From Pomphorhynchus laevis (lineage: Eukaryota > Acanthocephala > Palaeacanthocephala > Echinorhynchida > Pomphorhynchidae): DNA of 64,000 nt. The position numbers and the translations under genes are program-made. The stretch is from assembly GCA_012934845.2 (NCBI GenBank), contig WNNJ02002706.1, forward strand, positions 186,001 through 250,000, written 5' to 3'. This document shows positions 8,771 through 63,700 of this stretch, piece by piece. The notes beneath the pieces were generated by a model. The model did no database searches, had not been told where the DNA came from, and saw nothing but the letters and a program-made list of their open reading frames with translations. Positions within the stretch are counted from its first letter, which is position 1, and the number at the start of each line of letters is the position of its first letter.

Positions 8771-10004
8771 AACTAGCTCGAAACGGTGACTTTGTCATTT
8801 GCGACAATTTCACTGTTGAATTTATTTCGTGGTGCTGACGCCCTGATATCAAATGATTCCACGAACAATAGTATTTCCATTTGAGGAAATTTATTGATAG
8901 TGATGCATAGCAGCAGTGCATCGTAGTGCTATATTGTACTATCCGGTAGCCAACTGGTGTGTATCTTTGTAGCACAACGAGCTTGGTTCTCCTGCGCTTA
9001 ATGCAGACGGGTAAATATTTGCAGTTGCAAACCCCAGTCTTTGTAAGGGAACAAGGAGCATTTGTTGTTTCAAATCACCGTATAGCTTTTCTCCCAACTT
9101 CAATCCAGTTGTGGGGATTACAAGCTACTGATGAGAGCCAACTAGCTCGAAACGGCGACTTTGTCATTTGCGACAATTTCACTGTTGAATTTATTTCGTG
9201 GTGCTGACGCCCTGATATCAAATGATTCCACGAACAATAGTATTTCCATTTGAGGAAATTTATTGATAGTGATGCATAGCAGCAGTGCATCGTAGTGCTA
9301 TATTGTACTATCCGGTAGCAAACTGGTGTGTATCTTTGTAGCACAACGAGCTTGGTTCTCCTGCGCTTAATGCAGACGGGTAAATATTTGCAGTTGCAAA
9401 CCCCAGTCTTTGTAAGGGAACAAGGAGCATTTGTTGTTTCAAATCACCGTACAGCTTTTCTCCCAACTTCAATCCAGTTGTGGGGAGTACAAGCTACTGA
9501 TGAGAGCCAACTAGCTCGAAACGGTGACTTTGTCATTTGCGACAATTTCACTGTTGAATTTATTTCGTGGTGCTGACGCCCTGATATCAAATGATTCCAC
9601 GAACAATAGTATTTCCATTTGAGGAAATTTATTGATAGTGATGCATAGCAGCAGTGCATCGTAGTGCTATATTGTACTATCCGGTAGCCAACTGGTGTGT
9701 ATCTTTGTAGCACAACGCGCTTGGTTCTCCTGCGCTTAATGCAGACGGGTAAATATTTGCAGTTGCAAACCCCAGTCTTTGCAAGGGAACAAGGAGCCTT
9801 TGTTGTTTCAAATCACCGTATAGCTTTTCTCCCAACTTCAATCCAGTTGTGGGGAGTACAAGCTACTGATGAGAGCCAACTAGCTCGAAACGGTGACTTT
9901 GTCATTTGCGACAATTTCACTGTTGAATTTATTTCGTGGTGCTGACGCCCTGATATCAAATGATTCCACGAACAATAGTATTTCCATTTGAGGAAATTTA
10001 TTGA
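8771..10004. repeat. 369-bp satellite, 3.3 tandem copies
   Basis: The same unit starts at 8771, 9140, 9509 and 9878, an exact 369-bp period. The last unit is cut after 127 bp at 10004. Copies differ by only a few substitutions, so amplification is recent. Each unit contains the partly palindromic gatgcatagcagcagtgcat. Short open frames recur in both strands because the unit repeats; none resembles a known protein. Confidence 0.92.
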
Positions 10005-19834: not shown

Positions 19835-20620
19835 TAAAAAAGGATTTATTTTAACGTGGCAAATGCGTGCCAGCGCACGCTTACATGATCACAACAAAAC
19901 AATACTGTGAATCAGGTGTCGAGAAGGTGTGAACGGAGGAGGTGTTTGAATGTGATAAAGGAGGGAGCGCGGCGGACGTCGAGAGGGAGTTGATTCCAGG
20001 CGAGCGAGGCGGCCACGAGGAAGGATCGGAGACCGTAGTTGTTGGAGTAATTAGGAACGTGGAGTAAGAGGGTATGACAGGAACGAAGCGATAGCGAGGT
20101 GGGGCGAGTATCGTCTAAGAAAGGAATGTTGATGAACGATGGGGAGCCGACAGCGATGAGACGAAAAGTAACGAGAAGAAGGCGGAGTTTGATGCGGATG
20201 TGGATGGTGGGCCAGGAGAGTTGGGCAAAATATGTGGATGTGTGGTCGAAGCGACGGAGACGAAAGAGCACTCGAACGGCGGAGTTGATTATGCGTGTAG
20301 TGGTAGGATGATGGATTTTGGAGAATTGGCAAAAAGGCTAAGGCAGTAATCGATTTTAGGAAAAAGAAGCGATGATAGAAGAGTCATACAGGAACGGAAG
20401 TCGATAAGGGGGCGGATACAGCGGATGTCACGGAGAATTAAGTTAGATGAGTGGACATTGTCACGGACGAAGGATTTAAGGGAAAGGTGATCATCGAAAT
20501 GGAAGCCTAAGAAAGTGAGATTGTGGACTATGGGGATGATCGATGAGGCAAAATATACAGTGGGAGGAGATGTGTTTGGTTTACGGGGGAGGATATAATG
20601 GAGTTTTCATGTCCTTGAAA
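19835..20620 (-). mobile_element. L2-like LINE, subfamily 1, 3' part (copy a)
   Basis: A 5'-truncated minus copy. The RT C-terminal domain reads VLFRLRRFDHTSTYFAQLSW, LPFLDDTRPTSLSLRSCHTL and AWNQLPLDVRRAPS. It ends with the 3' hairpin GCGTGC-CAGC-GCACGC at 19865-19880 and a T-rich tail (in element sense). The 5' breakpoint at about 20611-20635 is a perfect hairpin (10-bp arms). It lies within the LINE relic spanning 18.96-20.99 kb. Confidence 0.85.
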
Positions 20621-30394: not shown

Positions 30395-31110
30395 ATATAA
30401 TAATACAAATTTATTTAATGTGGCAAATGGGTACAAGCTGTACGCTTACGAGTCTACAAATAAAAATGAAAAAGTCAAGCGTAGTTTGGGACATGTAAAA
30501 GAAGGGAATTACAGGAACGCAAGGAACAGTAAACAGGACGAGAATTATCAAGAAAAGGAAGATTGAGAAATGAAAGGGTATGTAGAGTTACAAGGCGGAA
30601 AGCAACGATAAGAAGACGAATTTGAACACGACAATAAATTGTAGGCAAATCGAGATAAGCAAGACGGTAGCATGTATGATCAAAACGACGTAGACGGAGG
30701 AGAATTCGGACGGCTGCGTTGACGATGCGTTGTAGGGGAAGAAGAGTGGATTTAGATGAGTTGGAAAATAGACTAAGACAGTAATCAAGTCTTGAGAAAA
30801 GAAGAGAAGATATGAGAGTCATACAAGAAGGGAAATCGATCAATCTACGAACTTGACGGAGGTTGCGGAGTATCAAAATAGATGAGCGTACTTTATCTCT
30901 AACGAAAGGTTTAAGTGAAAGTATGTTGTCAAAATGGAAGCCTAGGAAAACGAGATTATCAACGATAGAAATAATTGTAGAATTTAATGATACGGAGGTA
31001 GGTTCGAAGCCGAGGCCAAATCCCTTGAAGGATCCAACAAATGACGCGATGCAGCAACAAAGGAATCGCAAGATATGAATAGAGATTTTCAGATAAGCAA
31101 GTTTCAAGTT
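30395..31110 (-). mobile_element. L2-like LINE, subfamily 2, 3' part (copy c)
   Basis: 5'-truncated. RT C-terminal region: VDNLVFLGFHFDN, LSLKPFVRDKVRSS, LDYCLSLFSNS, RILLRLRRFDHT and LPFLDNSRPVYCSLRSCNS. About 130 bp present in the 58-kb copy (C-terminal codons) are deleted before the 3' UTR at about 30475. The 3' end has GGGTAC-AAGCT-GTACGC (one stem mismatch) and a (TATTAT) tail. Confidence 0.85.
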
Positions 31111-32429: not shown

Positions 32430-34480
32430 TTTTTTTAATTTGGCAAATGCACACAGACTGTGTGCTTACAAACCCACAACAGCGAAATAGATACAATAAA
32501 AAAACGTTACTCGTTTAGTAGCATCGATTTTAGTTGCTTTTTGAAAAATTGGAGTAAGGATTATGATCGCAGATGATCAGGTAAGGAATTGCAAAGGAGA
32601 GGAGCAGCGATATGTAGGGATCGACGGCCGAAGTTGGTTGAGTAAAGATGTACGTGTAGCAGAAGAGAAACACAGGAACGTAGGTGAGTAGAAAGAGATC
32701 GAGATTCACTTAGAGTTGGCAGATAGAGATAAGAAGGAGAATTACAAAAGAGAAGGCGATAAGTTAGACAAAACAGACGAAATCGAACGCGATGTTCAAT
32801 ACTTAGCCATCCAAGTTTTGATAAATAGGAAGATATATGATCGAATTTACGAAGTCGAAAAAGGATGCGCACCGCAGTGTTAATGAGGCGTTGAAGAGGT
32901 TTAAGGGATGACTTTGAAGAGAAAACGAGAAGGCTAAGACAGTAATCAATACGTGGGAAAAGAAGGGAGGAGATAAGAGATTTACAAGAACTAAAATCTA
33001 GAGAATTTATGACGAGACGAATATCACGGAGAAGAAGATTTGAAGACCTAGTTTTATCACGAATGAAGGGATCGAGATGCAGGTTATTGTCGAAGTGAAT
33101 ACCTAGAAATACTAGTTTATCTACAGCAGGAATAATTGTGGTCTGAAGATACAGAGATGGAGGAATAACAGAAACAGTGGAGGGAAAAATCCATAACACT
33201 TTAGATTTGGTAGGATTTAGGGACATGCGCAAAGAAATTAGATGTTCTGATAGAGCACGAAGACAATTAGATGCGGATACGAAAAGTTAGCTTAGGGAAT
33301 GAGGAGACGAATGAGAATAAAGAAGTATATCATCAGCGTACTGCATTACCCTGAAGCAGAATTTACTAGTTATACAAGATAAATCTCCAAGAAGAAGCGT
33401 AAATAGAATAGGGCCAAGTACAGAACCTTGAGGTACACCACAAGAGATAGAAGATAGAGGAGAACACATTGAATTAGAATGGACGGAAAATGATCGATCG
33501 GAGAGATACGAAGAGAACCAAGCCAAGGTGGACGAAGAGAAACCATAGTGATAGCGAAGACGAAAAAGAAGGATTTTGTGATCGACAATGTCGAATGCAG
33601 ATGAAAGATCGAGCGATATTACCACACTACACAGTCTTTTGTCACGAGCGGAGAGCAGATCAGAAAATACTTTATGACATGCTAGTTCGGTGGAACGATT
33701 GGAGCTGAAAGCAGATTGAAAAGAAGGATAGAGCTGCGATGAAGAGAGATACTTGTTTATCTGATCTAAGACAAGGTGTTCAAGAATTTTAGATAAGGTT
33801 GGTAGAATTGATATTGGGCGATAAGATGAAGGAAGAGAGGGGTCAAGAGAGGGCTTTTTAAGTAGGGGACGAACAATGGACGTTTTCCAAAGAACAGGAA
33901 ATATTCCATTCACTATTGACGAGTTAAAGAGGCTGGTAAGGAAATGGGTGAAGTCTGTTGACAACAATTTGAGAATTCGAGTAGGGATGTGATCGGCAGG
34001 AGAGGACTTACAAGTTTACGAAATAAGAAGGCAAGATACCTCATCTTCAGATACCGCAAGTAGATAAAAGAGCTCAGGGATACGAACAGACGAGATACAA
34101 TAAATTTGTGGAAGGACGATGATCGAATCGATTAGAGAAACAGTTTTTGAAATTAGGTAATCGGAGAATTGAGAAGGATCAAGAGTGGAGGTGACAGAGG
34201 AACGAGAAAGTAGAGAATTAAGAGTTTTCCATTTAGTTCGAGAGTCATTAGCGGAAGCCAGTTTGCTTCGCCAAAAACTATGTGCCTTAGAACGCAGAAG
34301 TTGCCTATGCGAACGACGAAGAGCAAAGAATTGGTTACGATAAAAGGATGAATAGATTCTTTCTATGTAATTTGAGTTTCGTATGAATCGGTATTGCTCG
34401 AGATTGCGATTAGCAATTCTTTCCATATGTTTGTGTGAATGTTTGAATCGAGCATATTCTTTAGCCTGCAAACTTTCGTC
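32430..34480 (-). mobile_element. L2-like LINE, subfamily 3 (copy d)
   Basis: Minus copy truncated inside ORF2. From 5' to 3': linker ALRRSHRQLLRSKAHSFW (34310), RT YRPISILPTLSKILEHLV, SLDLSSAFDIVDHK (A), GVPQGSVLGPILFT (B), VMQYADDILLYSHS (C; about 33340), LVFLGIHFDNNLH and FRLRKFDHISSYLSKLGW. The frame breaks near 34010 and 33260-33285. The 3' end has a perfect hairpin GCACACA-GAC-TGTGTGC at 32449-32465 and an A-rich end in element sense. Its 5' edge merges into a foldback at 34449. Confidence 0.85.
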
Positions 34481-34869: not shown

Positions 34870-35754
34870 TGCTAAAGAATGACATTTCTCTACGAAGAAG
34901 ACAAACGTTCTCCTGTATTTATCTTTTTGTAATTTAAAATACTGTAGAATGTACATAAAGATCTTTAAAATATATTTGAAAATCACCATTTTTAATATTT
35001 TGTATATTTTATAGAAAGTAATAATGAATAATCACTCGATCAATGTTGATTTATATGATAGGATAATAAATGGATATCCTAGATCTAATTAGATTTCATG
35101 TGAACCAACAAGATGCAATTTATTGCTTGAAATCTTTACTTGTGTTTCTATAAAATCTAGGCGGCATTGAATTGCTGTTGATTTAGAAATAGATTAGTTT
35201 GGTTAAAATTACGATAGATTTCCCTTCAGGCTAAACGGTCTGATAACAATTAGCATCACTTATCACTCAAGCAAACTATGATCCATTGCTTCAACCGCAA
35301 AGGTACTTGAATATATAATAGGATAGTTAACACATGATAATATTGATTTTTTGTTGAATTCTATATGAACTCGATTACAAATGTCATTTATTCAGTTTGT
35401 CAAGGCGCCTTCAACAATATATCCTTGACCTATATAAACTATAATTGCAAAGCAAAATTATTTATCTAAATTAAAATTCTTAAACCCAAGCTATGGTAAA
35501 AAGATTCAAGTAAAAGTGCAAAACCGTATTTTGCAAATTAAATATAAAAACACGGTAGGCATTCAAGATTGTAATTTCGAAGTGAGTTTTCACACAAAAT
35601 AATAGCTAAAAATATTTCAATTGTTTACACTTGTTTCAAGAAGTTTTGGATAGTAGTCATTATTTATTACATTACCTAACATTTCTGATGTTCTATCGAA
35701 ATAAATACAAAGTAAAGAAACAGAAAAATAAAATTTAATAGAAAACGGATATAT
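34870..35754. other. AT-rich region with possible RT relic
   Basis: Mostly featureless. The plus strand at about 35215-35400 reads ASTAKVLEYIIG and LTHDNIDFLLN between stops, reminiscent of the conserved fingers region of LINE RTs, too decayed to place. Confidence 0.35.
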
Positions 35755-35790
35755 TTTAAGTGGCAAATGCGTGCTGGCGCACGATTACAT
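35755..35790 (-). repeat. Orphan L2-like 3' tail
   Basis: Only the terminal hairpin (CGTGC-TGGC-GCACG, 35770-35783) and the gtggcaaatg motif are present, immediately followed by the complete 3' end of the next copy at 35797. Confidence 0.7.
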
Positions 35791-35796
35791 TTAAAA

Positions 35797-38700
35797 AAGA
35801 TTTATTTAACGTGGCAAATGCGTGGCAGCGCACGCTTACATGACCACAACAAAACAAAAATGTAAATCATGTGTCGAGGTGTGAACGGAGGAGGTATTTG
35901 AATTTGATAAAGGAGAGAGCGCGGCGGACGTCGAGAGGAAGTTGAATCCAGGCAAGTGGGGCGGCGACGAGGAGGGATGGGATGCCATAGTTGTTGGAGT
36001 AATTGAGAACGTGGAGTAAGAGGGTATGACGGGAACGCAGAGATAGCAAGGTGGGGCGAGTGTCGTCTAAGAAAGGAAGGTTGATGAACGATGGGGAGCC
36101 GACAGCGATGAGACGAAAAGTAACGAGAAGAAGGCGGAGTTTGATGCGGATGTGGATGGTGGGCCAGGAGAGTTGGGCAAGATATGTGGATGTGCGGTCG
36201 AAGCGACGAAGACGAAAGAGCACTCGAACGGCGGAGTTGCTTATTCGTTGTAGGGGTAGGATTATGGATTTTGGAGAAATGGCGAAAAGGCTAAGGCAGT
36301 AATCGATTTTAGGAAAAAGGATGAATGAAGAGATATACAAGAGCACTCGAACGGCGGAGTTGCTTATTCGTTGTAGGGGTAGGATTATGGATTTTGGAGA
36401 AATGGCGAAAAGGCTAAGGCAGTAATCGATTTTAGGAAAAAGGATGAATGAAGAGATATACAAGAGCGGAATTCGATAAGGGGGCGGGTACAGCGGATGT
36501 TACATAGAATTAAGTTAGACGAGCGGATCTTGTCACAGACGAAGGGTTTAAGGGAAATGTAATCATCGAAATGGAATACTAAGAAAGTGAGATTGTGGAC
36601 TACGATGATGATTGATGAGGCAACAGACACAAGGGGAGGCGATATGTAAGGTTGACGGGGGAGGACTCACATTATTTTGGACTTGTCTGGGTTTAGAACG
36701 AGTCGAAGATGGGATATACGTTTGTAGATAGAAGAATGACAATTGAAGGCAGAAATTGCGATATGGTGTATGCATTGTGCGGGTGCATGAGCATATATGA
36801 GGATGCCATATACGTATTGCATGACATTAAAGGAGTAAAGTTTGATAAACCGAGAGAGATCGCCAAGTTGAAGATAGAAAAGCAGGGGTCCTAGGACTGA
36901 ATCTTGTAGGGCCCCACAGAAAATAGAAAGGAAGGAGAGGATTATTAATTAGAAAAGACTCGAAAACAACAGTCGGTTGATATGAGGCAAACCATGCTGC
37001 GGAGGAGGAAGAAAATCCGTAATCATAACGAAGGCGATAAAGGAGGATGGAAAGGTCGACAATGTCGAATGCGGAGGAGATGTCGAAGAAGATGATAACA
37101 CTATGCAAAGCATTGTCTCGTGAAATAAGTAGGTTGTTGTAAACTTTCATGCAGGCAATTTATGTAGAGTGATTAGAGCGGAAAGCGGATTGGAAAGGAG
37201 GGTAGAGATTGGATGAAGAGAGATAAGCGTTGATGTGTATTAAGATGAGGCGTTCTAAGAGCTTAGAGAGAGCAGGGAGTATTGAAATGGCGCGATAGCT
37301 AGAAGATAGGGAGGGGTCGAGCGATTGATTCTCAAGGACTGGACGAACAATTGCGGATTTTTAGTGTGAAGGAAATATACGACTGCGTATGTGCGAGTTA
37401 AACAAGGTGGTTAGGAAAGGGGATATCGATGGGCATATGGATTTAAGAATGAGGGAAGGCAAAGGATCGGCAGGTGAGATTTTGTTTGACAAAGACATGA
37501 GAACAGATGAGACTTCGGCAGGTGAGACAGGGAGAATATGAAAGGGTTTCGAGTGGATATGGCGAGTAACCGTGAGATGAAATGGAGACGAAGTTGAGAG
37601 AGAGTAGCGTGGATACTTTGGTCAGAAGAAATGAATAATAATCATAAAGATTGATGTTGCATGACGAAGAGGAGCGAGAAAGGATTGAGTTAAAAGTATG
37701 CCAGACAGACTTGGAGTTTAATGAAATGTCAAATTTTATGCTGCCAGAAGGAGTTGCATTTGATATGTAGTAGGTGGAGATGAGATCGGCCAAGTGCGTG
37801 ATAGGAATCACGGAGAGACGATGAGCGAGCGGATTTTACTTCTGAGAGAGCGGTGATAGGCTCTAAAAGCATGACGGAGTCGACGTATTGGGAGTAGGCA
37901 TTGGATGTTAAACCATGGGTCACACTTCAAGCTACGGTGATGGTAATGCTTGAAGGGCAAGAGAAGTACGAGAGTGGATGTGAGTTCATAGTCGAAAATA
38001 AATGCGAGATCGTAAGGAGAGGTTAACCATATTGTGGGAGAAGATATAGACGATTTGACTAAGGCAGAGCGTAGAAAAGGGATGTCAAGATTTCTCTAAG
38101 GGCGACGTAGGGTGGTTGGTTTGGGAGGCGAGGAGTTGTTGGATGTGAGATCACGGGTGAAGATAAAGTGATCGGATAGACCAGTATCGGAGATGGACAG
38201 TGAGGGGTAGGCAGCAAAACGATCAAGGACAGCGATGATGTCGATTAACCCCTCTAAGGATATGTGTGAGGGGAGTGGAGATGAGTTTGTAATTGTAGTT
38301 CGATCGGATGTGGATAAACCGAATGGTATCGGTGGAAGGGGGCGGTTAAGGCGAATGTTGAAGTCGCCTAGAACTAGTGAAGGGATGGATGACAAAGAAC
38401 AAGGAGAAAAGAAATCAGCGAGTCGGCAAAATATAGGGAGGTAGGAGCTGATAAACTAGGACGATATACATTGGCGAGATCCAGAATAATCTCTCCTATC
38501 TTCGGATGGAGGTAGATGTTTCGCCGTTTTCATCGAGACGGCGTTTTTCGATGCGGGCAGAAGAGGGTTGAGCGACTTTGGAACGGGTGTGATCACGGTA
38601 AGTTCAAGTGGTTAAAGATAACATGAGTTTAAATCGTTGAGAGAGAACAGAGGACGCGTGAGAGTCATGCTTGAAAACCATTTTCAGGCGAGGGCGCTTA

Positions 38701-39564: not shown

Positions 39565-39752
39565 GGAACTGACAGGAAAAATCTGGAACTGACAGAAAAA
39601 ATCTGGAACTGACAGGAAAAATCTGAAACTGACATGAAATATCTGGAATCAAAAGGAAAACTCTGGAACTGACATGAAAAATCTGGAACTGACAGGAAAA
39701 ATCTGGAACTGACATGAAAAATCTAAAACTCTGGAACTGACAGGAAAAATCT
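39565..39752. promoter_or_regulatory. 20-bp tandem monomers at the L2-like 5' end
   Basis: Unit ggaactgacaggaaaaatct, eight copies in exact 20-bp register (39565-39724), then an 8-bp spacer and a ninth (39733-39752). They lie directly upstream (in element sense) of the 5' end of copy e. The same unit flanks the 5' ends at 62483-62521 (two copies) and 21525-21543 (one). By analogy with monomeric LINE promoters this may be the internal promoter; that role is inferred. Confidence 0.8.
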
Positions 39753-44443: not shown

Positions 44444-47400
44444 TCAAAGGAAATGTCTCCATCGGACGAGTTGATATTGAGGTTTTCGTCGACTCTGGGA
44501 TACGGGGATAAATGTCGAGTTGATATATATATATATCTCCCTCCCGTTTTGTAACTTCACGAGAGCAAAATTGGGATTGGCGTACACAATTTCAGCTTTT
44601 TCCACAGGGTTCTCGTATTTGTTCGTTTTATTAAAGCGTCTTATTAAGACTGTGCCAGGGTTTGATAACCAAGACGGAAGATCATGACCATTTATAGAGC
44701 GTCGGCTGAATGTAAAGAGTCGTTCATGTGGTGTGTGGTTCGTGGCAGTACACATAAGTGATCGAATAGCGTTGAGACATTGTGGTAATACACTTTGCCA
44801 CTCATCTGTTTTCTTTCCGAGGTCATGTAAACGCAATGATATTGCCTTCCATAGTACACCATTAAGGCGCTCGACTTGACCATTGCCAGCAGGGTTGTAT
44901 GAACTTGAATGAGTAATCGCCACCCCGTGATGAGAGAGGAATGACTGGATTTCCTTAGAGGTAAAAGCCGTACCTTGATCAGAATGGATTGAAGCAGGTG
45001 AACCGAAAATTGAAAAGATCTGGGTTAAACAGTCTATGACAGTGTGTGTAGTCATATCAGAACATGGAAAGGCAAAGGGGAATCTGCTATACTCGTCAAT
45101 GACGGTTAACAAATACCTTTTATTGTTCTTTGTAGGAATTGGGCCCTTAAAATCCATAGACAAGCGTTCAAATGGCATACTTGATTTTATGAGTTTAGCC
45201 TCAGGTGGACGAAAAAATCTTGGTTTCAATATAGCGCAGCTTTTGCACTCGCTTGAAATATTCCTAACATCCGAGAGGGAAAATAGGAGGTTCCGTTTTT
45301 GCACGAAATGCCAAAGGCGAGTAATTCCCGGGTGGCATAATTGACTATGAACTTTACGAAGATGCTGAATATCATGATTGGTGAATGAGACAGAGTTGCA
45401 GAACGCGTCGCGAGAAAGAGCGTCAGCGGCATGATTGAGCTTCCCAGCTCGGTACTGGATATCAAATTTAAATTGGGACAACTCCAAACGCCATCTTAAT
45501 ATCTTGTCGTTCTTTATTTTGTTGTTGTGAGCACTGAACATGTATGAAACAGAACGCTGATCCGTAATAATCTTGAATGGTTGGATGTACAAATAGTGTC
45601 TCCAGTATCTTAACGCTTCAACAATAGCCAGCGCTTTCTTTTCAATGGCGGTGAATCGTTTCGCGTTTTTGTCGAGGGATCTTGAAAAGAAGGCGACAGG
45701 CTTACTATTTTGAGACAAACAAGCTCCAATCGATCGCTCACTTGCGTCTGTCTCTATCGTGAATGGCAATTCAAAGTCGATGGTTGACAAAGTGGCTTCA
45801 GCTATACGTTCCTTCAAAGTATGGAAAGCTTTCAGTGCAGAATGAGATAATGGGAAAGACTGAGAATCAATTAGAGGACGAATCAACTTTGAGAAATCTT
45901 TAATCCAGGAACTGTAGTAGGCGAACAAACCAACAATACGCTTTAAGGATGCTGCGTTCTTGGGTTCCTCAAGGGAAGTAACTGAAATCACTCGATTGGG
46001 GTCAGGGGACATTTTTCCTTTAGAAATTTGGTAACCAAGTATTCGTATACACGAAGACGCGAACACACACTTTGAATTGTTCAAGGTTATATTGTATTTT
46101 GTGGCTACGTTTAGAAAACGCTTCAGGTTACTGTCATGTTGCTCTTTACTTCTTCCGCCGATCACGACATCATCCAGATAAGCGTAGGTGTCTGTCAACT
46201 TCTCTCTATTAATTATCCCATTGATAACTCGTTGAAAAGCAGGAACGGCGTTTGTGAGACTGAATGGTAGACGATTGAAGTGATATAAGGATCCATTCGC
46301 CTCGAAAGCAGTATAATGACGCTCGTCACTGCGCAGCAAAATCTGATGGTAAGCTGATTTAAGATCGAGACAACTGTAAAAGGAATATGGTGCTAATTTG
46401 TTGATAAAATCATCAATTCGTGGAAGTGGGAAGGCGTCGAGCTGAGTAAATTTATTGACAGTTTCCGAATAGTCAACAACCATCCGTCTCTTTTGGTTCT
46501 GATTGACAATGAGTACTTGAGCGCGCCAGGGCGATTGACTTGGTTCGATAATTTCGTCGGATAATAGTTGTTTGATTTGGCTGTCAATGAACTTTTCATC
46601 GTACGGATTTCTTCTACGAGATTTTGTTGCGATAGGATGGATGGATTCGTCCAGAAATTTGAATAGCTGAGGAGATTCAACTGTCAAAGCTTCTGCAGCT
46701 CCAATTGTAAAACAAGGCTCGGAACCGTTGAATTTCATAAGTAACGAAGTGTGTCTTGAAAGGAATGGCCGGCCAAGTATAACATCCGAACATAAAGACG
46801 ACAAAATATGGAATTTTATATTCTTGTAAGGTCTGCCATCAGCTGATATATCCGCTACCACGAATTGTCGTAATTTAGTCGAGAATGCGGTGTTCGCCAT
46901 AGACACACGTATAGTTGAGGGGTTCGATGTCAGTTTGCACAAAGTGGAAATATCAGGTCTTATCAAATTGAGTGCACTACCTGTATCAATCAACGCATTT
47001 AACGAAACCCCTTTTATACAAATTTGAATTGTTGGTAGCGTCGCGGCAGAATCTTGAAAGAAAGAAGTGCTACCGAGCACGGAATGGACAATTTTCACTG
47101 TTGAAATTTGTCGTTTGGATTTACACACCCGTGCGAAATGACCCAACTTCCCGCAAGTACGACAAGTGATATTCTTAGCAGGACATCGATCTCGTTTGTG
47201 AATTGTATCTCCACAAAAGTAGCATTTGCGACGTTCTACCGAGTTACATTGTATTTGACAAGGAAGTTCTTGTATATTTTCATGTAGTTCATTTATGGTC
47301 ATCGATTCACAACCCATATTTAAGTTTGATTGTTCTGTGAAATGGCTTGCTTGAGTATGCGCGTCTTCCAAAGTTCGTGCAAGCTCGTACGCCTTGGCTT

Positions 47401-47866
47401 TATTGTGTACCGCAGCTTCAAGCAGGCGTTGCCGAATTATCGGTGAGTTGATTCCTGCGACGAACGTGTCGCGTAAAAATAAATCTCGATGATTTTGAGC
47501 TGTTACAGCCTCGAATGGACATTCACGACCCAGAGATTCGATATGCCTTATGAATTGATCGATTGTTTGGTTGGACGATTGGCGCTGATTACGCAATTGA
47601 TGTCGCAGAAACAAATCCGTTTTCGACTTGACGTACGTAGTAGATAACGTCGATAACGCGTCTTCGTAAGTTTCCGTTTCTCGAAAAAGGTCGTAAACCT
47701 CCGCTGAAACCAGGTTCGTTAAAATGTGAAATTTGTCACTATCGGACGGTGACTCCAAGGACAAAATGAATGTCTTGAAACGTATGAGCCAATGTCTCCA
47801 GGTGCGCTCGGCATTCGTGTCATCAGGATGCAATTCCAAGATGTTTGGCTTCAAGATCTTGTCCAT
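44444..47866 (-). CDS. Gag-pol polyprotein of Mag-like element
   Basis: One 1,140-codon frame. Gag occupies about residues 1-205, with a retropepsin-era gag fold assumed. Two zinc knuckles follow: CYFCGDTIHKRDRC and CRTCGKLGHFARVC (near 215-250). Protease LIDTGSALNLI near 285; RT with LDLKSAYHQILL, LPFSLTNAVPAFQ and YAYLDDVVIGG; RNase H with ETDASERSIGACL and ADALSRD; integrase with the H-H-C-C finger (HSQLCH ... CKSCAIL) and the D, D, E residues in SMDFKGP, IHSDQGTAF and NPAGNGQVERLNG. The end (REIYIYINS) is altered by an (AT)7 repeat and runs out of frame. Start ATG at 47866 follows the PBS region by about 10 bases. Catalytic residues all appear intact, so the element may be active or recently so. 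Confidence 0.92.
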   Translation of the reverse strand: MDKILKPNILELHPDDTNAERTWRHWLIRFKTFILSLESPSDSDKFHILTNLVSAEVYDLFRETETYEDALSTLSTTYVKSKTDLFLRHQLRNQRQSSNQTIDQFIRHIESLGRECPFEAVTAQNHRDLFLRDTFVAGINSPIIRQRLLEAAVHNKAKAYELARTLEDAHTQASHFTEQSNLNMGCESMTINELHENIQELPCQIQCNSVERRKCYFCGDTIHKRDRCPAKNITCRTCGKLGHFARVCKSKRQISTVKIVHSVLGSTSFFQDSAATLPTIQICIKGVSLNALIDTGSALNLIRPDISTLCKLTSNPSTIRVSMANTAFSTKLRQFVVADISADGRPYKNIKFHILSSLCSDVILGRPFLSRHTSLLMKFNGSEPCFTIGAAEALTVESPQLFKFLDESIHPIATKSRRRNPYDEKFIDSQIKQLLSDEIIEPSQSPWRAQVLIVNQNQKRRMVVDYSETVNKFTQLDAFPLPRIDDFINKLAPYSFYSCLDLKSAYHQILLRSDERHYTAFEANGSLYHFNRLPFSLTNAVPAFQRVINGIINREKLTDTYAYLDDVVIGGRSKEQHDSNLKRFLNVATKYNITLNNSKCVFASSCIRILGYQISKGKMSPDPNRVISVTSLEEPKNAASLKRIVGLFAYYSSWIKDFSKLIRPLIDSQSFPLSHSALKAFHTLKERIAEATLSTIDFELPFTIETDASERSIGACLSQNSKPVAFFSRSLDKNAKRFTAIEKKALAIVEALRYWRHYLYIQPFKIITDQRSVSYMFSAHNNKIKNDKILRWRLELSQFKFDIQYRAGKLNHAADALSRDAFCNSVSFTNHDIQHLRKVHSQLCHPGITRLWHFVQKRNLLFSLSDVRNISSECKSCAILKPRFFRPPEAKLIKSSMPFERLSMDFKGPIPTKNNKRYLLTVIDEYSRFPFAFPCSDMTTHTVIDCLTQIFSIFGSPASIHSDQGTAFTSKEIQSFLSHHGVAITHSSSYNPAGNGQVERLNGVLWKAISLRLHDLGKKTDEWQSVLPQCLNAIRSLMCTATNHTPHERLFTFSRRSINGHDLPSWLSNPGTVLIRRFNKTNKYENPVEKAEIVYANPNFALVKLQNGREIYIYINSTFIPVSQSRRKPQYQLVRWRHFL

Positions 47867-47874
47867 GGTAACAG

Positions 47875-47888
47875 TGTATTAGAATAAA
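47875..47888 (-). promoter_or_regulatory. Putative self-complementary primer-binding site
   Basis: Element-sense TTTATTCTAATACA one base inside the 5' LTR is the exact reverse complement of TGTATTAGAATAAA in the LTR (47924-47937). No TGG-type tRNA complement is seen here. Confidence 0.7.
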
Positions 47889-51564: not shown

Positions 51565-52134
51565 AAAAGGATTTATTTTAACGTGGCAAATGCGTGCCAG
51601 CGCACGCTTACATGACCACAACAAAACAAGACTGTGAATCAGGTGTCGAGAAGGTGTGAACGGAGGAGGTGTTTGAATGTGATAAAGGAAGGGGCGCGGC
51701 GGACGTCGAGAGGGAGTTGATTCCAGGCGAGTGAGGTGGCGACGAGGAAGGATGTGAGACCGTAGTTGTTGGAGTAATTAGGAACGTGGAGTAAGAGGGT
51801 ATGACAGGAACGAAGCGATAGCGAGGTGGGGCGAGTATCGTCTAAGAAAAGAAGGTTGATGAACGATGAGGAGCCGACAGCGATGAAACGAAAGGACGCG
51901 AGAATAAGGCGGAGTTTGATGGGGATGTAGATCGTGGGCCAGGAGAGTTGGCAAAATATGTGGATGTGTGGTCGAAGCGACGGAGACGAAAGAGCACTTG
52001 AACGGCGGTGTTGATTATTCGTTGTAGGAGTAGGATGATGGATTTTGGAGAATTGGCGAAAAGGCTAAGGCAGTAATCGATTTTAGGGAAAAGAATGCGA
52101 TGAAAGAAGAGACATACAAGAACGGAAGTCGATA

Positions 52135-52258
52135 AGCGGGCGGATACGGCGGATCCGCCTCCTTATCCGCCCCCTTAAGGAGGCGGATACTGTGGATCCG
52201 CACCCTTATGTATCCGCCGTATGTCGGCGGATACATATCCGCCGACATACGGCGGATG
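52135..52258. repeat. Palindromic scar inside L2-like RT
   Basis: A cluster of inverted repeats made of gcggatacggcggat-type words (atccgcctccttatccgcc / ggaggcggat; tatccgccgtatgtcggcggata; tatccgccgacatacggcgga). It replaces about 170 bp that intact copies have between the cggcggatgtcacgg and gagatgtgtttggtt sequences. Confidence 0.85.
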
Positions 52259-53545
52259 TGTTTGGTGTACGGGGGAGGATCCCCATTATTTTGGACTTTT
52301 TGGGGTTTAGAACGAGATGGAGATTGGATAGACGTTTGTAGATAGAAGAAAGACAGTTGGAGGCAGAAATGACGATATCGTGTATGCGATGTGCGGGTGC
52401 ATGAGCATAGATTAGAATTTCATCGGCGTATTGCATGACGTTAAAGGAGTAAGGTTTGATAAACGGAGATAGGTCGCCAAGCAGAAGAGAGAAAAGCAGG
52501 GGACCTAGAACTGAACCTTTCGGGACCCCGCAAAAAATAGGGATGGGAGGGGAGGATGATGAATTAGAACAGACGCGAAAGGAACGGTCGGATAGATATG
52601 AGGCGAACCATGCTACAGAGGAGGAAGAAAAGTCGTAATCATAACGAAGGCGAGAAAGAAGGACGGAGTGGTCGACAATGTCGAATGCTGAGGAGAGGTC
52701 GAGGGAGATATTAACACTATATAGAGCCTTGTCTCGAGAAATGAGTAAGTCGTTGTACACTTTTATGCATGCGATTTCTGTCGAGTGATTAGAGCGGAAA
52801 GTGGATTGGAAAGGAGCGTACAGATTGGATGAGGAGAGATAAGCGTTGATTTGTATTAAGATGAGGCGTTCTAAGAGCTTAGAAAGAGTAGTGAGTAGTG
52901 AAATGGGGCGATAGCTAGAAGGAAGAGAGGGGTCGAGCGATTGTTTTTTAAGGAGGGGACGAACGATTGCGGATTTTCAGTGTGAAGGGAAGATACGACT
53001 GCGGATGGACGAGTTAAACAAGGTTGTGAGAAATGGGGATATCGATGAGCATATAGATTTTAATATGTGAGTAGGCAGGGGATCGGCAGGTGAGGTTTTG
53101 TTGGGCAAGGACATGAGGACATATGATACTTCTGTAGGTGAGACAGGGAGAAGATGAAAGAGTTCCGGAAGGATGAGAGTAGACTGGGCAGAGTGGGATA
53201 GGATGGAGACCGGGGTGTGAGAGAGCAACGTGGATACTTTAGTCTGGAGAAATGACGAATAATCATTGGCATTGATGTTGCACGGCGAAGAAGAGCGAGC
53301 AAGGATTCAGTTATAAGTATGCCAGAGAGTCTTAGAGTTGAATGAAGCGATGATTTTATTCTTCCAGAAGGAGTTGCATTTGGTACGTAGTAGGTTGCGA
53401 TGAGACCGGCGAAGAGCAAGATAGGAATCACGGAAAGACAGTGTGATCGAGTGGAAATCACGTCTGAGTAAGCGGTGAGTGACTCGAAAAGCATGGCGGA
53501 GTCGACGCTTTGATAGTAGGCATTGGATGTCAAACCATGGGGCAC
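52206..53545 (-). pseudogene. L2-like RT (copy g)
   Basis: RT with SLDLSSAFDIVDHSVLLSRL (A), GVPKGSVLGPLLFS (B; Lys for Gln) and VMQYADEILIYAHA (C; YADE instead of YADD). Two catalytic-motif changes plus frameshifts near 52760-53060 indicate decay. It runs into the palindromic scar after PRTPNTSA. Confidence 0.8.
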
Positions 53546-53607
53546 GGTGCAAGCGACGGTGTGGGTGAGACTTTAAGAGCAAGAGAATATCGAGAGTGGA
53601 TGTGAGT

Positions 53608-54492
53608 TCAGAGTGGAAAAGAAAGGCGAGATCGTGAGGAGATGAATATGTTATTGTGGGTAATGATAGAGATGATTTGAGTAAGGCAGAGCGGAGAAGG
53701 GAGGTCAAGATTTCTCCAAGGGCGACGTAGGATTGTAGGTGTGTGAGGAGGGGTGCGATTGCGAGTGAGATCAAGGTTGATAAGAAAGTGATCAGATAGA
53801 CCAGGATCAGAGATGGACAGTGAGGTGTTGGCAGCAAAATGATCGGGGACGGCGATTATGTCGAGTGCCCCACCAAGTATATGTGTGGGGGCAGTGGAGA
53901 TTAGTTTGTAATTGTAGTTGGATAGAATGTTGATGAACCGGATGGAATCCGTAGAAGAGGGGCGGTCTAGGCGGATATTGAAGTCGCCTAGAACGAGTGA
54001 AGGGATTGAGGACAAAGAACAATAAGAAAGGAGGTCAGCGAGTTCGGTAAAAAATAAGGCAGTAGGAGCTGATGAATTAGGACGGTATACAATGGCGAGA
54101 TCTAAAGTGATCGGGTTAGAAGAACGAATATTGAGCAATTCAAAAGAGCAAGGACTGAAAGGGGGATTGATTTTGCGAAGAGTCGCGGGGTGACGCGCGA
54201 ATGCGACGATGCCTCTATGATTCGAAAATTTGGAAGGGCATGAGCTGAGAGGGCGGGCGGATTCGACTAGGGAGCAACCGGTAGAGAGCAGACGGCGAAT
54301 GGAAAGGTCGTCGGAATCTGAGTGCCAGGATTCGGTGAGGCAGAAGAGATCAATGGATTGCTTGGTGAATAGGTTGATGATAAGATCGGATTTATTGAGA
54401 ATAGATCTAGTGTTGAGGAGACCGAGGCGGAAACCGTGTGTTGTGGCGAAAGAGTCTAGTGGATAAGACACATAGGAGAGATGGAGCGCCAT
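53608..54492 (-). CDS. L2-like endonuclease, open frame (copy g)
   Basis: 295 open codons. Motifs RLGLLNTRSILNKSDL, FCLTESWHSDSDD, VIYRP-type LAIVYRPNSSAP, LVLGDFNIRLDRP, LGGALDIIAV and DPGLSDHFLINL cover the whole AP-endonuclease-like domain with its Asn, Glu, Asp and His residues. The frame breaks after RPWRNLDLPS, before the RT linker. Confidence 0.85.
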   Translation of the reverse strand: MALHLSYVSYPLDSFATTHGFRLGLLNTRSILNKSDLIINLFTKQSIDLFCLTESWHSDSDDLSIRRLLSTGCSLVESARPLSSCPSKFSNHRGIVAFARHPATLRKINPPFSPCSFELLNIRSSNPITLDLAIVYRPNSSAPTALFFTELADLLSYCSLSSIPSLVLGDFNIRLDRPSSTDSIRFINILSNYNYKLISTAPTHILGGALDIIAVPDHFAANTSLSISDPGLSDHFLINLDLTRNRTPPHTPTILRRPWRNLDLPSPLCLTQIISIITHNNIFISSRSRLSFPL

Positions 54493-54499
54493 CGAATTT

Positions 54500-55850
54500 T
54501 TGGACGGGTGTGGACAACTTGAAAATTTCCGTCTATAATTTGGATGGAGAGTGATGTTTCGCCGTTTTCCTCGCGAGGGCGTTTTTCGATGCGGGCTGAA
54601 GAGATTTGAGCAATTTCAAAAGGGGCGCGATCGGGAAAATTCGAGTGGTTGAAGATGCCATGAGTTTGAATTGTTGAGAGAGGACAGAAGACGCGTGAGA
54701 GCGATGCTTGAAAACAATTATTTAGGAGAGGGGGCTGGGAATGATTAGATAGAAGATTTGTTTATACGGATGAATGCGACAGGAGAAATTTCCTTGAAAA
54801 AAGATGGTTTATCCGCAGGGACAATAGACGAGAGGATGGATCTGAAGGCGGAAACATCGTGGTCTAGACGTGCTTGTGGAGATAAGGAGTTAGAAGGCGT
54901 GATATTAGTGACAATGACGCAACGATCGCGAGAAGCAAAGCGCTTCCGTAAAGGGGGACGGCTGACGTGAGTAGGTGATATCACGATAGAAGAGCTGGTA
55001 GTCTATAATTTGGAGGGATTTGGTTTGACGACGGGAGACATAGAGGATAATGATAATAAAGAGGGTGGCAAGCGATGTGAGGAAAAGTTATGAGTGGAAG
55101 GATAGTGGAGGTTGGTGGTGGTGATTTTGATTAATGGATGCAAAGTATTGAGAAACGAGACGGGAAGTACGGGACGTGGGGTGTCGGGGAGTGAAAATAC
55201 ATTAGTTGTAACAATTTGCGGCTCCGTCACTGTCTCGGTAGATTTATCATAAACTTGACAAAATCTATCTTGCTGCGATACTATTTGCGGCTCCTTCAGA
55301 TTATCTGATGATGGATTATCTGATGATGACGTAGAAACGCAATGAGGGGTAGGAATGTAAGGTGATTTATCTGATACGACTAAAGAAATACTGGGTTGCA
55401 AATGGTCAATGACAGTAACATCAGAAGATTAAGCTGATTGATTGGGCAAAATTGAAGGATGTATAGTAATACCTGTAGAAGATATGGGAGATTTGCATTC
55501 TTAGAGGCAATCGAATGCGGAAGAATTGGGCATCGGGGTTGAAACTTATTACAATATAAAGAGGCATGTGTGGACATTGCTGCATTGCCAGATAGTTTCA
55601 ATATATTTGTCTTGAGACTCTCTATTTCACTCTTCATCGTATTTATCATCTTTGCCGAACAGTAGCCACAGTAGAATTCGTTGTCTGCAAGGCAAGATGC
55701 CTGGGATTCTGAAGTCTAAATACTTACCCACGTGTGACCATCATTGTTTGAGCAAAGGACTTGTTGTTCAGATCCATTGGAAACATCTCTAACATCGGTG
55801 CTGGACACGAAATGGTTGGGAACTTAAGACTTTTGTTTTTTCTGACCCAT
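54500..55850 (-). pseudogene. L2-like ORF1 with PHD-like finger (copy g)
   Basis: Begins near 55850 (MGQKKQKS then stop). The finger reads VLCSNNDGHTWVS ... FYCGYCSAKMINTMKSEIES, then a coiled-coil-like EIESLKTNILKLSG, a Ser/Pro-rich linker, and the RRM-like part RDRCVIVTNITPSNS, SRLDHDV-like ARLDHDVSAFRSIL. Stops near 55840 and 55720 break it. Confidence 0.65.
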
Positions 55851-56507: not shown

Positions 56508-57220
56508 GATTTATTTTAACGTGGCAAATGCGCGCCAGTTCACGCTTACATGACCACAAAAAAGAACAAAAAGCAAAATCATATGTCAAGAAGGTGGGTA
56601 CGGAGACGGTATTTGAATGAAATAAAGGAGGGAGCGCGATGGAAGTCGAGAGGGAGCTTATTCAAGGTAAGTGTTACGGCGACGAGGAAGGATCGGATAC
56701 CGTAGTTGTAAGAGTAATTAGGAACGTGGAGTAAAAGGGAATTACGGGAACGCGGTGATAGAGAGAGGTGGGCAGAGTGTCGTCTAAGAAAGGAAGGTTG
56801 ATGAACGATGGTAAGCCGACAGCGATAAGACTAAAAGTTACGAGAAGAAGGCGGAGTTTGATGCGGATGTGGATGGCGGGCCAGGAGAGTTGGGCAAAAT
56901 ATGTGGATGTGTGGTCGAAGCGACGGAGACGAAAGAGCACTCGAACGGCGAGTTGATTATTCGTTGTAGAGGTAGGATTATGGATTTTGGAGGAATGGCG
57001 AAAAGGCTAAGGCAGTAATCGATTTTAGGAAAAAGAAAGGATGAAAGAAGAGATATACAAGAGCGGAAGTCAATAAGGGGGCGGATACAGCGGATGACAC
57101 AGAGAATTAAGTTAGACGAGCGGACCTTGTCACGGACGAAGAATTTAAGGGAAAGGTGATCAACGAAATGGAAGCCTAAGAAAGTGAGATTGTGGACTAT
57201 AGGAATGATCGATGAGCCAA
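56508..57220 (-). mobile_element. L2-like LINE, subfamily 1, 3' part (copy h)
   Basis: RT C-terminus: LFRLRRFDHTSTYFAQLSWP and FINLPFLDDTLPTSL. The 3' hairpin (56530-56545) is weakened by two mismatches. The 5' breakpoint at 57221-57247 is a perfect hairpin. Confidence 0.85.
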
Positions 57221-58060: not shown

Positions 58061-58244
58061 GCAACATTTCCGAAAGGCGGACACAACTAGGCAAGAAAAA
58101 AATTATAAAAAACGAAAGACCTTTATTAGACATTTAAAAAACATCTTTCATTTTTTTGAGGATAGTGTAATAATACAAATTTATTTAATGTGGCAAATGC
58201 GTACAAGCTGTACGCTTACAAGTCCACAAACAAAAATGAAAAAG

Positions 58245-61200
58245 TCAAGCAGATAAATTGTTAAAATGGGATCGGATTTGTCGTTTGAAGCACTGCAGGG
58301 AAGTTGATTGGCGTATATGAATGGGCAGATGATTCCACGATAGAGGAGCAGCCATCAGGAAGGAGCGGAGTCCAAAGGAGGTAGAGTAGTTTGGGACATG
58401 TAAAAGAAGGGAATTACAGGAACGCAAGGAACAGTAAACAGGACGGGAATTATCAAGAAAAGGAAGGTTGAGAAATGAAGGGGTATGAAAAGTTACAAGG
58501 CGGAAAGCAACGATAAGAAGACGAATTTGAACACAACAATAAATTGTAGGCAAATCGAGAGAAGCAAGATGGTAGGATGTATGATCAAAACGACGAAGAC
58601 GGAGGAGAATTCGGACAGCTGCGTTGACGATGCGTTGTAGGGGAAGAAGAGTGGATTTAGGTGAGTTGGAAAATAGACTAAGACAATAATCGAGTCTAGA
58701 AAAAAGGAGAGATGATATGAGAGTCATACAAGAAGGGAAATCGATCAATCTACGAACTTGACGGAGGTTGCGGAGTATCAAGGTAGATGAGCGTACTTTA
58801 TCTCTAACGAAAGGTTTAAGTGAAAGTCGGTTGTCAAAATGGAAGCCTAGGAAAACGAGATTATCAACGATAGGAAGAATTGTAGAATTTAATGATACGG
58901 AGGGAGGTTCGAAGCCGAGGCGTCGAGGTAGGATCCACATAATTTTGGATTTATCAGGATTCAGAGAAAGGCGAAGGGAAGAAAGATGATTGGAAATTGA
59001 GACAAGACAGTCGGAAGCGGAAACACTAAGATCGTGAATACGATAAACAGGTGCATGAGCATAGATGAGAATGTCATCAGCATATTGCATAACATGGAAG
59101 TTAAATTTATGAGAAATCGAAGACAAATCACCAAGAAGAAGAGAGAAAAGTATAGGGCCTAATACGGAGCCTTGTGGAACACCGGACGGAATGGACGAAG
59201 GATGGGAGAGAGAAGAGTTAGAATATACGCGAAATGTACGGTTTGATAGATATGAAGAAAACCATGATACAGTGGGTAAAGAGAAGCCATAATCATGACG
59301 AAGGCGATGGAGAAGAATCGAGTGATCGACGATGTCAAAAGCAGACGATAGATCAAGAGAAACTATGACACTACATAATTTATGATCGCGCGATATGAGT
59401 AAGTCGTTATAAACTTTAAGACATGCAATTTCGGTAGAGTAATTAGAGCGAAAAGCGGCTTGGAAGGGAGGAAATAAGTTGGAGGAATAGAGATATGTAT
59501 TAACTTGCTTAAGAACGAGACGCTCAAGGAGTTTAGAGAGGGTTGGGAGAAGTGAAATAGGACGGTACGAAGATGGTAGTGAGGAGTCGAGAGATTGCTT
59601 TTTGATGAGAGGACGAACAGTGGCGCATTTCCAGATGGAAGGAAATGTACGGCTACGGATGGACGAGTTGAACAATGTGGTTAGGAAGGGTAAGATAAAG
59701 GAGCAGATATTTTTAAGCAAGTGAGTGGGAATTGGGTCAGAAGGAGAGGTTTTATTAGGTAATGACAGCAGAACCGAAGAAACTTCATCAGACGAAACGG
59801 GAAGGTGGAATAGTTCTGGGAGGGAAGTATTTAAAGATAAGAGTGGGTACAAGGGGGCTATGGGTAGTAGGAAAAGTAAATTAGATAGCTTAGTTTGTAG
59901 ATAAGAAGAAAATTCATCAGGATTTATATTACAAGGGGTAGATGATCGTGAAAGAATTGAGTTTAAGATTTTCCAATGATATTTAGAGTTGGAAGATGAC
60001 TTGAGTTGATTTCGCCAAAAGATAGTACGTTTAGTACTTATAAGAATGAGATGTGAACGGCGTTGAGAAAAGTAGGAATCACGAAGATTTGGAGGGAGTG
60101 AGTTGGGTGAACGTTTAAGAAAGCGTTTATACATACGAAAAGAGTGACGGAGTCGACGCTTGGAAAGACTACAGTCAGAATCGAACCAGGGAGCATGGCG
60201 CAAGCGCTGGGAACGTCGAAGTCGACTAGGTAGAAGGTTATTGAGGATCGACGTAAGTTCAGAATCAAACAGAATGCAGAGATCATCGGGAGAGAGATAG
60301 TTAAGAGGAAGTGAAAAGAGTGAAGAATTGAGTAAGGCTGTGTAGAGAACAGGGATATCGAGAAGCTTCCAGGGTCGACTTGGTGTAGATAAAGGTAAAG
60401 GCGGAGAAGGAGGATGGGGACGAGTAAGAGTAATAGTGACAAGGAAATGATCGGACAAACCAGGATCAGTAATTGACAAGGAGGTATAGTCATTGAAGCA
60501 GTTAGGAACAGCAATGATGTCGAGAGCACCGCCGAGAATATGAGTTGGGCTTGTTGAAAGTAATTTATAGTTAAAATCAGAAAAAAGATTAGTTAAAGTG
60601 ATAGAGTCAGAGTCAGACGGGCGATCAAGACGAATGTTAAAGTCACCGAGAACAAAAGAAGGAGTATAAGACAATGAACAGTGAGACATTAGATCTGCAA
60701 GGTCGTTAAAGAAGATACGTGATGGGGCAACTGAACCTGGACGGTATACAATCACAAGTTCCAGAGGGAAAGGCGTTGATAATCTGCATATGAGTAATTC
60801 AAACGAAGTGTAACGGATGTTAACGTTGATTTTACGTAAAGACATTGGGTGACGAGTAATGGCAACAATACCGCCATGGTTAGACGCAGTAGATGTATGA
60901 GATGTAATTTGACGAGCTGATTCAACTAGAGAACAACCAGAGCGACATAGACGACGAATAGCAAGATCGTCAGAGTCAGAGTGCCAGGATTCGGTAATGC
61001 AGAGAATATCGATAGATAATTGATCGAAGATATCGAGAAGCATATCAGCTTTATGAAGAATGGAGCGAGTATTGAATAGACTAAGACGAAAAGTATGCTT
61101 AGGAGCGAGATCGACTAGCGAAGAAGACAAGGGGAGAGATGGGACGCCATCGAATTTTTGGCCTTGTGTGAAGAACGTGAAAATTTTCGTTGATTTTACG

Positions 61201-61247
61201 TATAGATAAGGATGACTCGCCGTTTGTTTCACGTCGATGTTTTTCAA
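58245..61247 (-). CDS. L2-like ORF2: endonuclease-reverse transcriptase
   Basis: An uninterrupted 1,000-codon frame. The endonuclease has RLSLFNTRSILHKADM, CITESWHSDSDD, VIVYRPGSVAP, FVLGDFNIRLDRP, LGGALDIIAV and DPGLSDHFLV. The RT has SSYRPISLLPTLSKLLERLV, FQAAFRSNYSTEIACLKV, SLDLSSAFDIVDHSILLHRL (A), GVPQGSVLGPILFS (B), VMQYADDILIYAHA (C, about residue 725) and NPDKSKIMWILP. The C-terminal helical domain ends WNHLPIHIRQS ... RSHFNNLSA. The nominal start at 61247 is a TTG; translation may begin by reinitiation near the end of ORF1. All catalytic residues are present, so this is the best candidate for a functional LINE protein here. Confidence 0.92.
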   Translation of the reverse strand: MKNIDVKQTASHPYLYVKSTKIFTFFTQGQKFDGVPSLPLSSSLVDLAPKHTFRLSLFNTRSILHKADMLLDIFDQLSIDILCITESWHSDSDDLAIRRLCRSGCSLVESARQITSHTSTASNHGGIVAITRHPMSLRKINVNIRYTSFELLICRLSTPFPLELVIVYRPGSVAPSRIFFNDLADLMSHCSLSYTPSFVLGDFNIRLDRPSDSDSITLTNLFSDFNYKLLSTSPTHILGGALDIIAVPNCFNDYTSLSITDPGLSDHFLVTITLTRPHPPSPPLPLSTPSRPWKLLDIPVLYTALLNSSLFSLPLNYLSPDDLCILFDSELTSILNNLLPSRLRRSQRLRHAPWFDSDCSLSKRRLRHSFRMYKRFLKRSPNSLPPNLRDSYFSQRRSHLILISTKRTIFWRNQLKSSSNSKYHWKILNSILSRSSTPCNINPDEFSSYLQTKLSNLLFLLPIAPLYPLLSLNTSLPELFHLPVSSDEVSSVLLSLPNKTSPSDPIPTHLLKNICSFILPFLTTLFNSSIRSRTFPSIWKCATVRPLIKKQSLDSSLPSSYRPISLLPTLSKLLERLVLKQVNTYLYSSNLFPPFQAAFRSNYSTEIACLKVYNDLLISRDHKLCSVIVSLDLSSAFDIVDHSILLHRLRHDYGFSLPTVSWFSSYLSNRTFRVYSNSSLSHPSSIPSGVPQGSVLGPILFSLLLGDLSSISHKFNFHVMQYADDILIYAHAPVYRIHDLSVSASDCLVSISNHLSSLRLSLNPDKSKIMWILPRRLGFEPPSVSLNSTILPIVDNLVFLGFHFDNRLSLKPFVRDKVRSSTLILRNLRQVRRLIDFPSCMTLISSLLFSRLDYCLSLFSNSPKSTLLPLQRIVNAAVRILLRLRRFDHTSYHLASLDLPTIYCCVQIRLLIVAFRLVTFHTPSFLNLPFLDNSRPVYCSLRSCNSLLLHVPNYSTSFGLRSFLMAAPLSWNHLPIHIRQSTSLQCFKRQIRSHFNNLSA

Positions 61248-61259
61248 TGCGAGCTAAAT

Positions 61260-62482: not shown

Positions 62483-62629
62483 GGAACTGACAGGAATAAT
62501 CTGGAACTGACAGGAATAATTGTAATTTGCTAGAACAGTTATAAATTTTCTAGTGTGGAAAATTAATTTCGAGTGTAGGTAAAGTTTGCAATTAAAATTA
62601 AATAAAAAAAATAAAATTTAATTTTTTTT
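62483..62629. other. 5' monomers and AT-rich junction
   Basis: Two 20-bp monomers (62483-62521) then tgtaatttgctagaaca-tt-taaattttct, which also occurs at about 21770, and A/T-rich sequence. Confidence 0.5.
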
Positions 62630-63417: not shown

Positions 63418-63700
63418 TACAATTTATTTAACGTGGCAAATGTGTGCAAAATGCACGCTTACATGACTACTAACAAACAAAAAAAGAACATCAAAAGTCA
63501 CAGATAATTAGTTAATTGTTGAAATGGTATTGGATTTGGTGTTTGAAGCACGGTATAGATGTTGATTGGCGGATATGAAGAGGCAGTTGATTCCACAAGA
63601 GAGGAGCAGCCACAACGAAGGAGCGGAAGTCAAAAGAGGTAGAGTAGATTGGGACATGTAAAAGAAGGGAATTACGGGAACGCAGAGAAATAGTGTTGGT
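63418..63700 (-). mobile_element. L2-like LINE, subfamily 2, 3' end (copy j)
   Basis: Only the C-terminal codons LLLHVPIYSTSFDFRSFVVA, LLWNQLPLHIRQSTS and the 3' UTR remain. Hairpin GTGTGCA-AAA-TGCACGC at 63442-63458 has one imperfect pair. TATTATTATC tail. Confidence 0.85.

Follow-up and report, generated by a model that had tools for sequence, protein, structure and literature searches.

A 3′-terminal hairpin with family-specific paired stems in L2-type LINEs of Pomphorhynchus laevis

Comparison of the 3′ ends of L2-like LINEs in a 64,000-nucleotide stretch of the Pomphorhynchus laevis genome (referred to here as the window) reveals a short hairpin located behind ORF2, whose flanks are shared and whose stem sequence differs between element families by changes on both arms. 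There are nine such ends, all on the minus strand, with the organization GTAA-[6-bp stem, loop of 4–5 nt]-ATTTGCCA, and they carry a conserved 3′ stem-loop as the ends of stringent-type LINEs do. The hairpin is very probably the 3′-terminal recognition structure of stringent L2-clade LINEs, of the kind found in UnaL2 and ZfL2.

Hairpin-bearing LINE ends in the window

The host genome is represented by 249,390,268 bases in 3,242 contigs. Retroelements are numerous in the window, and its minus strand holds the remains of several L2-type LINEs as well as exons that we take to match an O-GlcNAc transferase. Also present are a tandem repeat at 8771–10004 (unit 369 bp, 3.3 copies, 98% matches) and an uninterrupted Gypsy-type gag-pol frame of 1144 aa at 44444–47878, whose best database relative is 48% identical; the 120 of 492 matches listed for its pol bear the names of scattered animals.

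One of these elements belongs to family A and has an uninterrupted ORF2 frame of 1002 aa (58245..61253; this and all hairpin, frame and motif coordinates below are on the minus strand), with Pfam matches to Exo_endo_phos at residues 61–269 and RVT_1 at residues 550–805. Its 3′ UTR spans 58166..58244, and 25 nt beyond the stop codon begins the hairpin (58191..58219), which consists of GTAA, a 6-bp stem GCGTAC/GTACGC, a 5-nt loop and ATTTGCCA. On the 5′ side of the element lies a 20-bp tandem repeat of 1.9 copies (62483..62520, no strand assigned), the unit of which is nearly identical (GGAACTGACAGGAAAAATCT / GGAACTGACAGGAATAATCT) to that of eight copies at 39565–39724, located before a family B element. 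Another family A hairpin (30421..30449) has a single private mismatch, C×C at pair 2, and the family A′ hairpin GCGTGC/GCACAC (63434..63462) has C×A at the same pair. Family B is represented by the stem GCGTGC/GCACGC at 51584..51611, with the loop GCTG and at the end of a broken ORF2 (51651..54592), and at 19857..19884, by a copy with a private C×C at pair 6 (35812..35839), and by one privately changed at two pairs (56522..56549; U-G at pair 4, A×G at pair 6). Directly behind the 35812 hairpin is a second, family-B-like tail (35761..35788) with GTAATC in place of GTAAGC and a private U×C at pair 1. The two tails stand head to tail within 35736–35856, 51 bp apart, the second nearly bodiless, and are possibly the product of a nested, extremely truncated insertion or of tail duplication. 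Family C has the stem GCACAC/GTGTGC and the loop AGTCT (32441..32469), at the end of an element whose ORF2 remains, corresponding to family A residues 391–999 by tblastn, occupy 32513..34339.

The sequence-only reading of this DNA had counted ten such ends; the tenth ATTTGCCA, at 51330, has no preceding GTAA. The stems that it named at 19865, 51592, 58199 and 32449 are present exactly as written and intact, and its statement that stems stay paired holds for these, with private changes in the five other copies (one each at 30421, 63434, 35812 and 35761, and two at 56522). The TTAAA that it placed at the terminus is instead inside the conserved block: homology between families extends to approximately TTAAATAAAT, and family A copies continue to approximately TTTGTATTATTA, the tail common to all three of them ending near 58168 in the 58245 element. 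The L2-like character it assigned was borne out, and what it called subfamilies are better regarded as distinct LINE families, because ORF2 protein pieces of B and C are about 50–65% identical to A. Coding DNA identity is about 67% between A and B and about 65% between A and C, and the last 52–76 nt around the hairpin are 79–85% identical between families; in one alignment, of A with the B element at 51584, coding sequence and tail form a single 575-nt piece at 65%.

ATTTGCCA occurs ten times in the window (mean 3.24 and maximum 8 in 100 shuffles). With the nine window copies alone, the covariation score is 0.187 (shuffled mean 0.104, 0/500 as high) and three pairs are changed on both sides (17/500 shuffles as high); the number of further pair types is not above the shuffled level (404/500). 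Single-copy folding energy gives z below −2 in three of the nine copies, which is a weak argument, and an Rfam search of the window returned no match. RNAalifold predicts a fold in which ten pairs close a 5-nt loop and are interrupted, 6 bp from it, by a bulge of 2 nt, and the available part of PMC5135761 describes stringent LINE loops as having an 8–10 bp stem, a loop of 5–7 nt and a bulge 4–6 bp from the loop. Loops of 4 nt in B and of 3 nt in D (a family described below) lie outside this range.

Among named proteins, the best matches to ORF2 across most of its length come from frog and fish (30–34% identical), and we take them to be L2 elements. By their ORF2, with endonuclease and RT matches in Pfam, the host elements are predicted to be L2-type LINEs. 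The interval between endonuclease and RT contains the motif PWFD...K-x3-R-x3-R-x2-K (60123..60191), which would correspond to the tail-binding region of zebrafish L2, with the register to zebrafish numbering inferred from PMC4176376. Positions 11/15/19/22 are K,R,R,K in family A; K,R,R,H in the family B element 51651..54592 (motif start 53540) and I,R,R,H in a broken B copy at 37918; K,R,R,H in both of the spanning family C copies, with T for P; and K,R,R,L in two of three family D copies, with K,R,H,L in the other. R15 and R19 are invariant in an alignment of eight proteins that includes the frog and fish elements, and a conserved tail-binding region is thus predicted in ORF2.

Tails are repeat-like in A′ and C and have T-runs in B. 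ZfL2-1 is described in the accessible part of PMC4245944 as having 5-bp target-site duplications; among eight copies examined here, with uncertain 5′ ends, candidate repeats of 7–8 nt are present at the B copies 19857 and 51584, and nothing clear was seen in the other six.

Abundance and family diversity of the hairpin in the genome

The pattern GTAAGC-N8-30-ATTTGCCA has 6,789 exact matches in the host genome, some of them satellite, compared with 22 for the reversed pattern. One locus (L213; G000:C22:19900-23700) is a tandem repeat of about 306 bp with GTAAGCC...GGCATTTGCCA, which has LINE tail flanks and a longer loop; this satellite seems to contain the LINE tail motif.

Pairing was scored in a sample of 88 copies, namely the first 100 matches listed minus 12 with long loops, in which the 5′ arm begins with two bases set by the search pattern. 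All six pairs form in 68 copies, five in 19 and four in one. As a chance control, the same flanks were sought in viral contigs: at least 120 matches were obtained, of which 105 nest the two forced pairs only, ten nest three and five nest four, and none nests more than four, a count that includes the two forced pairs. Three arm pairs are seen three or more times in the host sample; two of them, with 42 and 18 copies, form every pair, and the third, GCATGC/GCACGC (four copies), has one mismatch. The 16 singleton arm pairs average 5.19 of six pairs, with four fully paired. Shuffling arms among the 23 distinct arm pairs, where 77 of 92 inner pairs form (mean 72.1, 45/10000 as high), is weaker than the tree-aware test given below; with all 88 copies, 332 of 352 are formed (mean 311.6, 0/10000).

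Genome searches for copies departing from the common stem identified four further types, of which no copy was seen in the window. Family D has the stem GTGACT/AGTCAC; family E has GTGG/CCAC and forms four or five of the six pairs; family F has GCGCGC/GCACGC, with a fixed C×A mismatch at pair 4; and the G-type has GCGTGC or CCGTGC as its 3′ arm. The flanks are therefore found with the stems GCGTAC/GTACGC, GCGTGC/GCACGC, GCACAC/GTGTGC and GTGACT/AGTCAC in different families, GTAA and ATTTGCCA being fixed in the copies seen and serving also as search handles. Loop length also varies by family: D has 3 nt, B has 4, A and C have 5, and E has a longer loop. Upstream RT pieces reveal LINE families behind these tails: where 200 or more residues align, identity to the family A RT is 0.86 for A′, 0.53–0.70 for B-type, 0.61–0.62 for C, 0.56 for F, 0.34–0.44 for D and 0.37–0.44 for E, and no RT with at least 200 aligned residues was found adjoining a G-type tail.

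Covariation and its limits

To take shared descent into account, a tree was constructed from RT residues alone for 23 hairpin-bearing copies and four outside proteins, and in the null the observed number of changes in each arm column was placed at random on the tree, the two arms independently. The loci were hand-picked from partial lists, not drawn at random, and the placement of E is uncertain owing to long branches. Taking the six pairs together, pairing is seen in 130 of 138 cells (null mean 86, maximum 119, 0/5000; transition-biased 1/5000). A count of the pairs that covary, of which there are five, is a weaker measure; this value is reached in 18/5000 replicates, or 109/5000 with transition bias. 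Because one search pattern had fixed pairs 1–3 for some D and E loci, pairs 4–6 constitute the fair test; for these, no search pattern constrained anything beyond the 5′ base of pair 4, whose partner was always free. Here 61 of 69 cells are paired (null mean 29.1, maximum 55, 0/5000; transition-biased 21/5000), and covarying cells number 31 against 3.3 in the null, a value not reached in 5000 replicates with or without transition bias. When the loci from the pattern that fixed pairs 1–3 are removed (15 leaves, pairs 3–6), 56 of 60 cells are paired (null 30.8, 0/5000; transition-biased 3/5000), and when in addition one copy is kept per family, pairing is seen in all but two of the 32 cells (30; null 15.5, 0/5000; transition-biased 7/5000), with eight covarying cells (0/5000; transition-biased 5/5000). 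The transition-biased null thus weakens the paired-cell result without removing the covariation. The sequence-only reading had argued from the paired changes for selection on structure and had looked to a larger alignment for covariation; this is strong in the tree-controlled set, and selection on structure is supported for the 6-bp upper stem only.

Several results do not favor pairing. Double changes at pair 6, which closes the loop, are not enriched for pairing: 12 of the 27 copies that have them (8 of the 18 distinct sequences) are Watson-Crick, close to the one third that chance predicts. The four copies with both bases of pair 4 changed comprise one Watson-Crick pair, two G-U pairs and one unpaired. 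At pair 2, eight of ten double changes are Watson-Crick; five of these are T-A, which could be produced by decay of two mirrored CpG sites. Where the first stem base is changed, most copies retain the old partner (by eye, among 100 of 131 copies), as expected of private decay. No compensatory change was seen in either lower stem, GUAA/UUGC or GUGG/CCAC; a genome-wide search of one pair of the former yielded a single double change, which is unpaired. From the results for and against, therefore, the structure claim is secure where the upper stem is compared between families, and is otherwise weak.

Probable template recognition, other accounts and known L2 tails

The suggestion of the sequence-only reading that the hairpin is the template recognition site of the RT is supported by the L2-type ORF2 with its putative tail-binding region, RT binding itself being suggested by homology. 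In zebrafish L2, the 3′ stem-loop is bound by the part of ORF2 that lies between endonuclease and RT; binding needs four basic residues, and specificity comes from the loop (PMC4176376). Family A has all four residues in the register used here. By analogy with the zebrafish and eel L2 elements, the tail-binding region of ORF2 would grip the RNA helix and place the 3′ end of the RNA in the RT, with target-primed reverse transcription beginning just downstream of the hairpin. RNAs bearing the hairpin would then be the ones copied, so that families change stem sequence only in pairs. The template-recognition reading draws on tail binding by zebrafish L2, the motif residues and the fold predicted by RNAalifold; the position of the hairpin, its abundance, the paired changes and the motif are seen directly in the sequences. 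Less likely, though worth considering, is that the copying enzyme here reads the fixed flanks (GTAA and ATTTGCCAC) and the shape of the helix and not the loop, opposite to what holds in zebrafish; if so, families may swap stems and loops freely and share or cross-use one another's machinery.

Paired changes may also arise by mutation alone. Template switching at a near-palindrome can overwrite one arm with a copy of its partner in one step, and such events have been described for RNA stems (PMC8794818, in the part available); the three adjacent pairs that differ at once between families C and B are what it would produce. We regard this account as improbable, since it leaves unexplained the fixed position of the stem and its flanks across RT families that are about 40% identical, and it is also opposed by the 88-copy sample, where two of the three recurrent arm pairs are fully paired and the singletons fall short of six pairs on average. 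Decay at mirrored CpG sites is far less probable still. GCGTGC/GCACGC has a CpG on both arms, and two independent transitions suffice for T-A at pair 2, as for A-T at pair 3; however, CpG transitions do not account for the changes that separate B from A, C or D at pairs 4 and 5, family D differing from B by double transversions at both, and the covarying cells at pairs 4–6 exceed every transition-biased replicate. CpG decay is refuted as a full account because the covariation persists without pairs 2 and 3.

A different role for the structure, in RNA 3′-end formation, stability or export rather than in RT recognition, is unlikely as well. The hairpins of families A and B are directly before AATAAA-containing tails, but in the family C and D tails seen AATAAA is absent just there and the hairpin is kept. 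Moreover, some copies share only 30–75 nt with others, and this is always the 3′ tail (in a sample chosen by tail), as expected if copying starts at the tail; in related L2 elements the structure is used for RT recognition (PMC4176376). Recognition of the template by the RT is thus the role that we favor.

The closest known elements are from fish. ZfL2-1 and ZfL2-2 of zebrafish likewise have an L2-type ORF2, a 3′ stem-loop near the end and a tail-binding region with basic residues between endonuclease and RT, and ZfL2-2 has repeats in its 5′ UTR where the elements here have 5′-side repeats; in contrast, the zebrafish loop sequence sets specificity, whereas loop length and sequence here vary between families (PMC4176376). 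UnaL2 and UnaSINE1 of eel have a stem-loop, required there for mobility, with an internal loop or bulge and short repeats after it, to which the predicted bulge and repeat-like tails here would correspond, but have a GGAUA loop and a (TGTAA)n tail (PMC4176376 and PMC5135761, as far as their available text goes); the tails here are ATT-rich, T-runs or (CTTTCAAA)n-like, and the loops are other than GGAUA. The HAmoL2 LINE and HAmo SINE of carp are similar in the L2 type of the LINE, the conserved 3′ hairpin and probably the terminal short repeats, and differ in forming a LINE/SINE pair (available part of PMC2653535): here no tail-sharing SINE was recognized among 64 tail-bearing stretches searched for tRNA genes, none of which has one.

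A covariation analysis of L2 tails was not found in the literature searched, of which coverage was partial (the available text of PMC5135761 included), and sequence pieces of the fish L2 tail led to no paper of relevance. Signals of this kind are known; as far as this limited search extends, the element families and the series of swapped stems within one genome are new. The importance of L2-type 3′ hairpins has been shown in a few fish elements (eel and zebrafish), and one animal genome in which several RT families have fixed flanks and differing paired stems constitutes a natural series of compensatory mutations, which permits asking which part of the RNA – helix, loop or flanks – the tail-binding region reads, without guessed mutants.

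In viral contigs, the fish L2 tail had no match and L2-type relatives gave a single short match. GTDB contigs contain 20 L2-type loci, of which the ends of eight were examined; the flanks were seen in none of the eight, and nothing clear was found at six of the ends. The other two (L123 and L124), in MAG contigs assigned to archaea or bacteria, seem to have a hairpin and short repeats at the end, by eye for L124, and are probably animal contamination.
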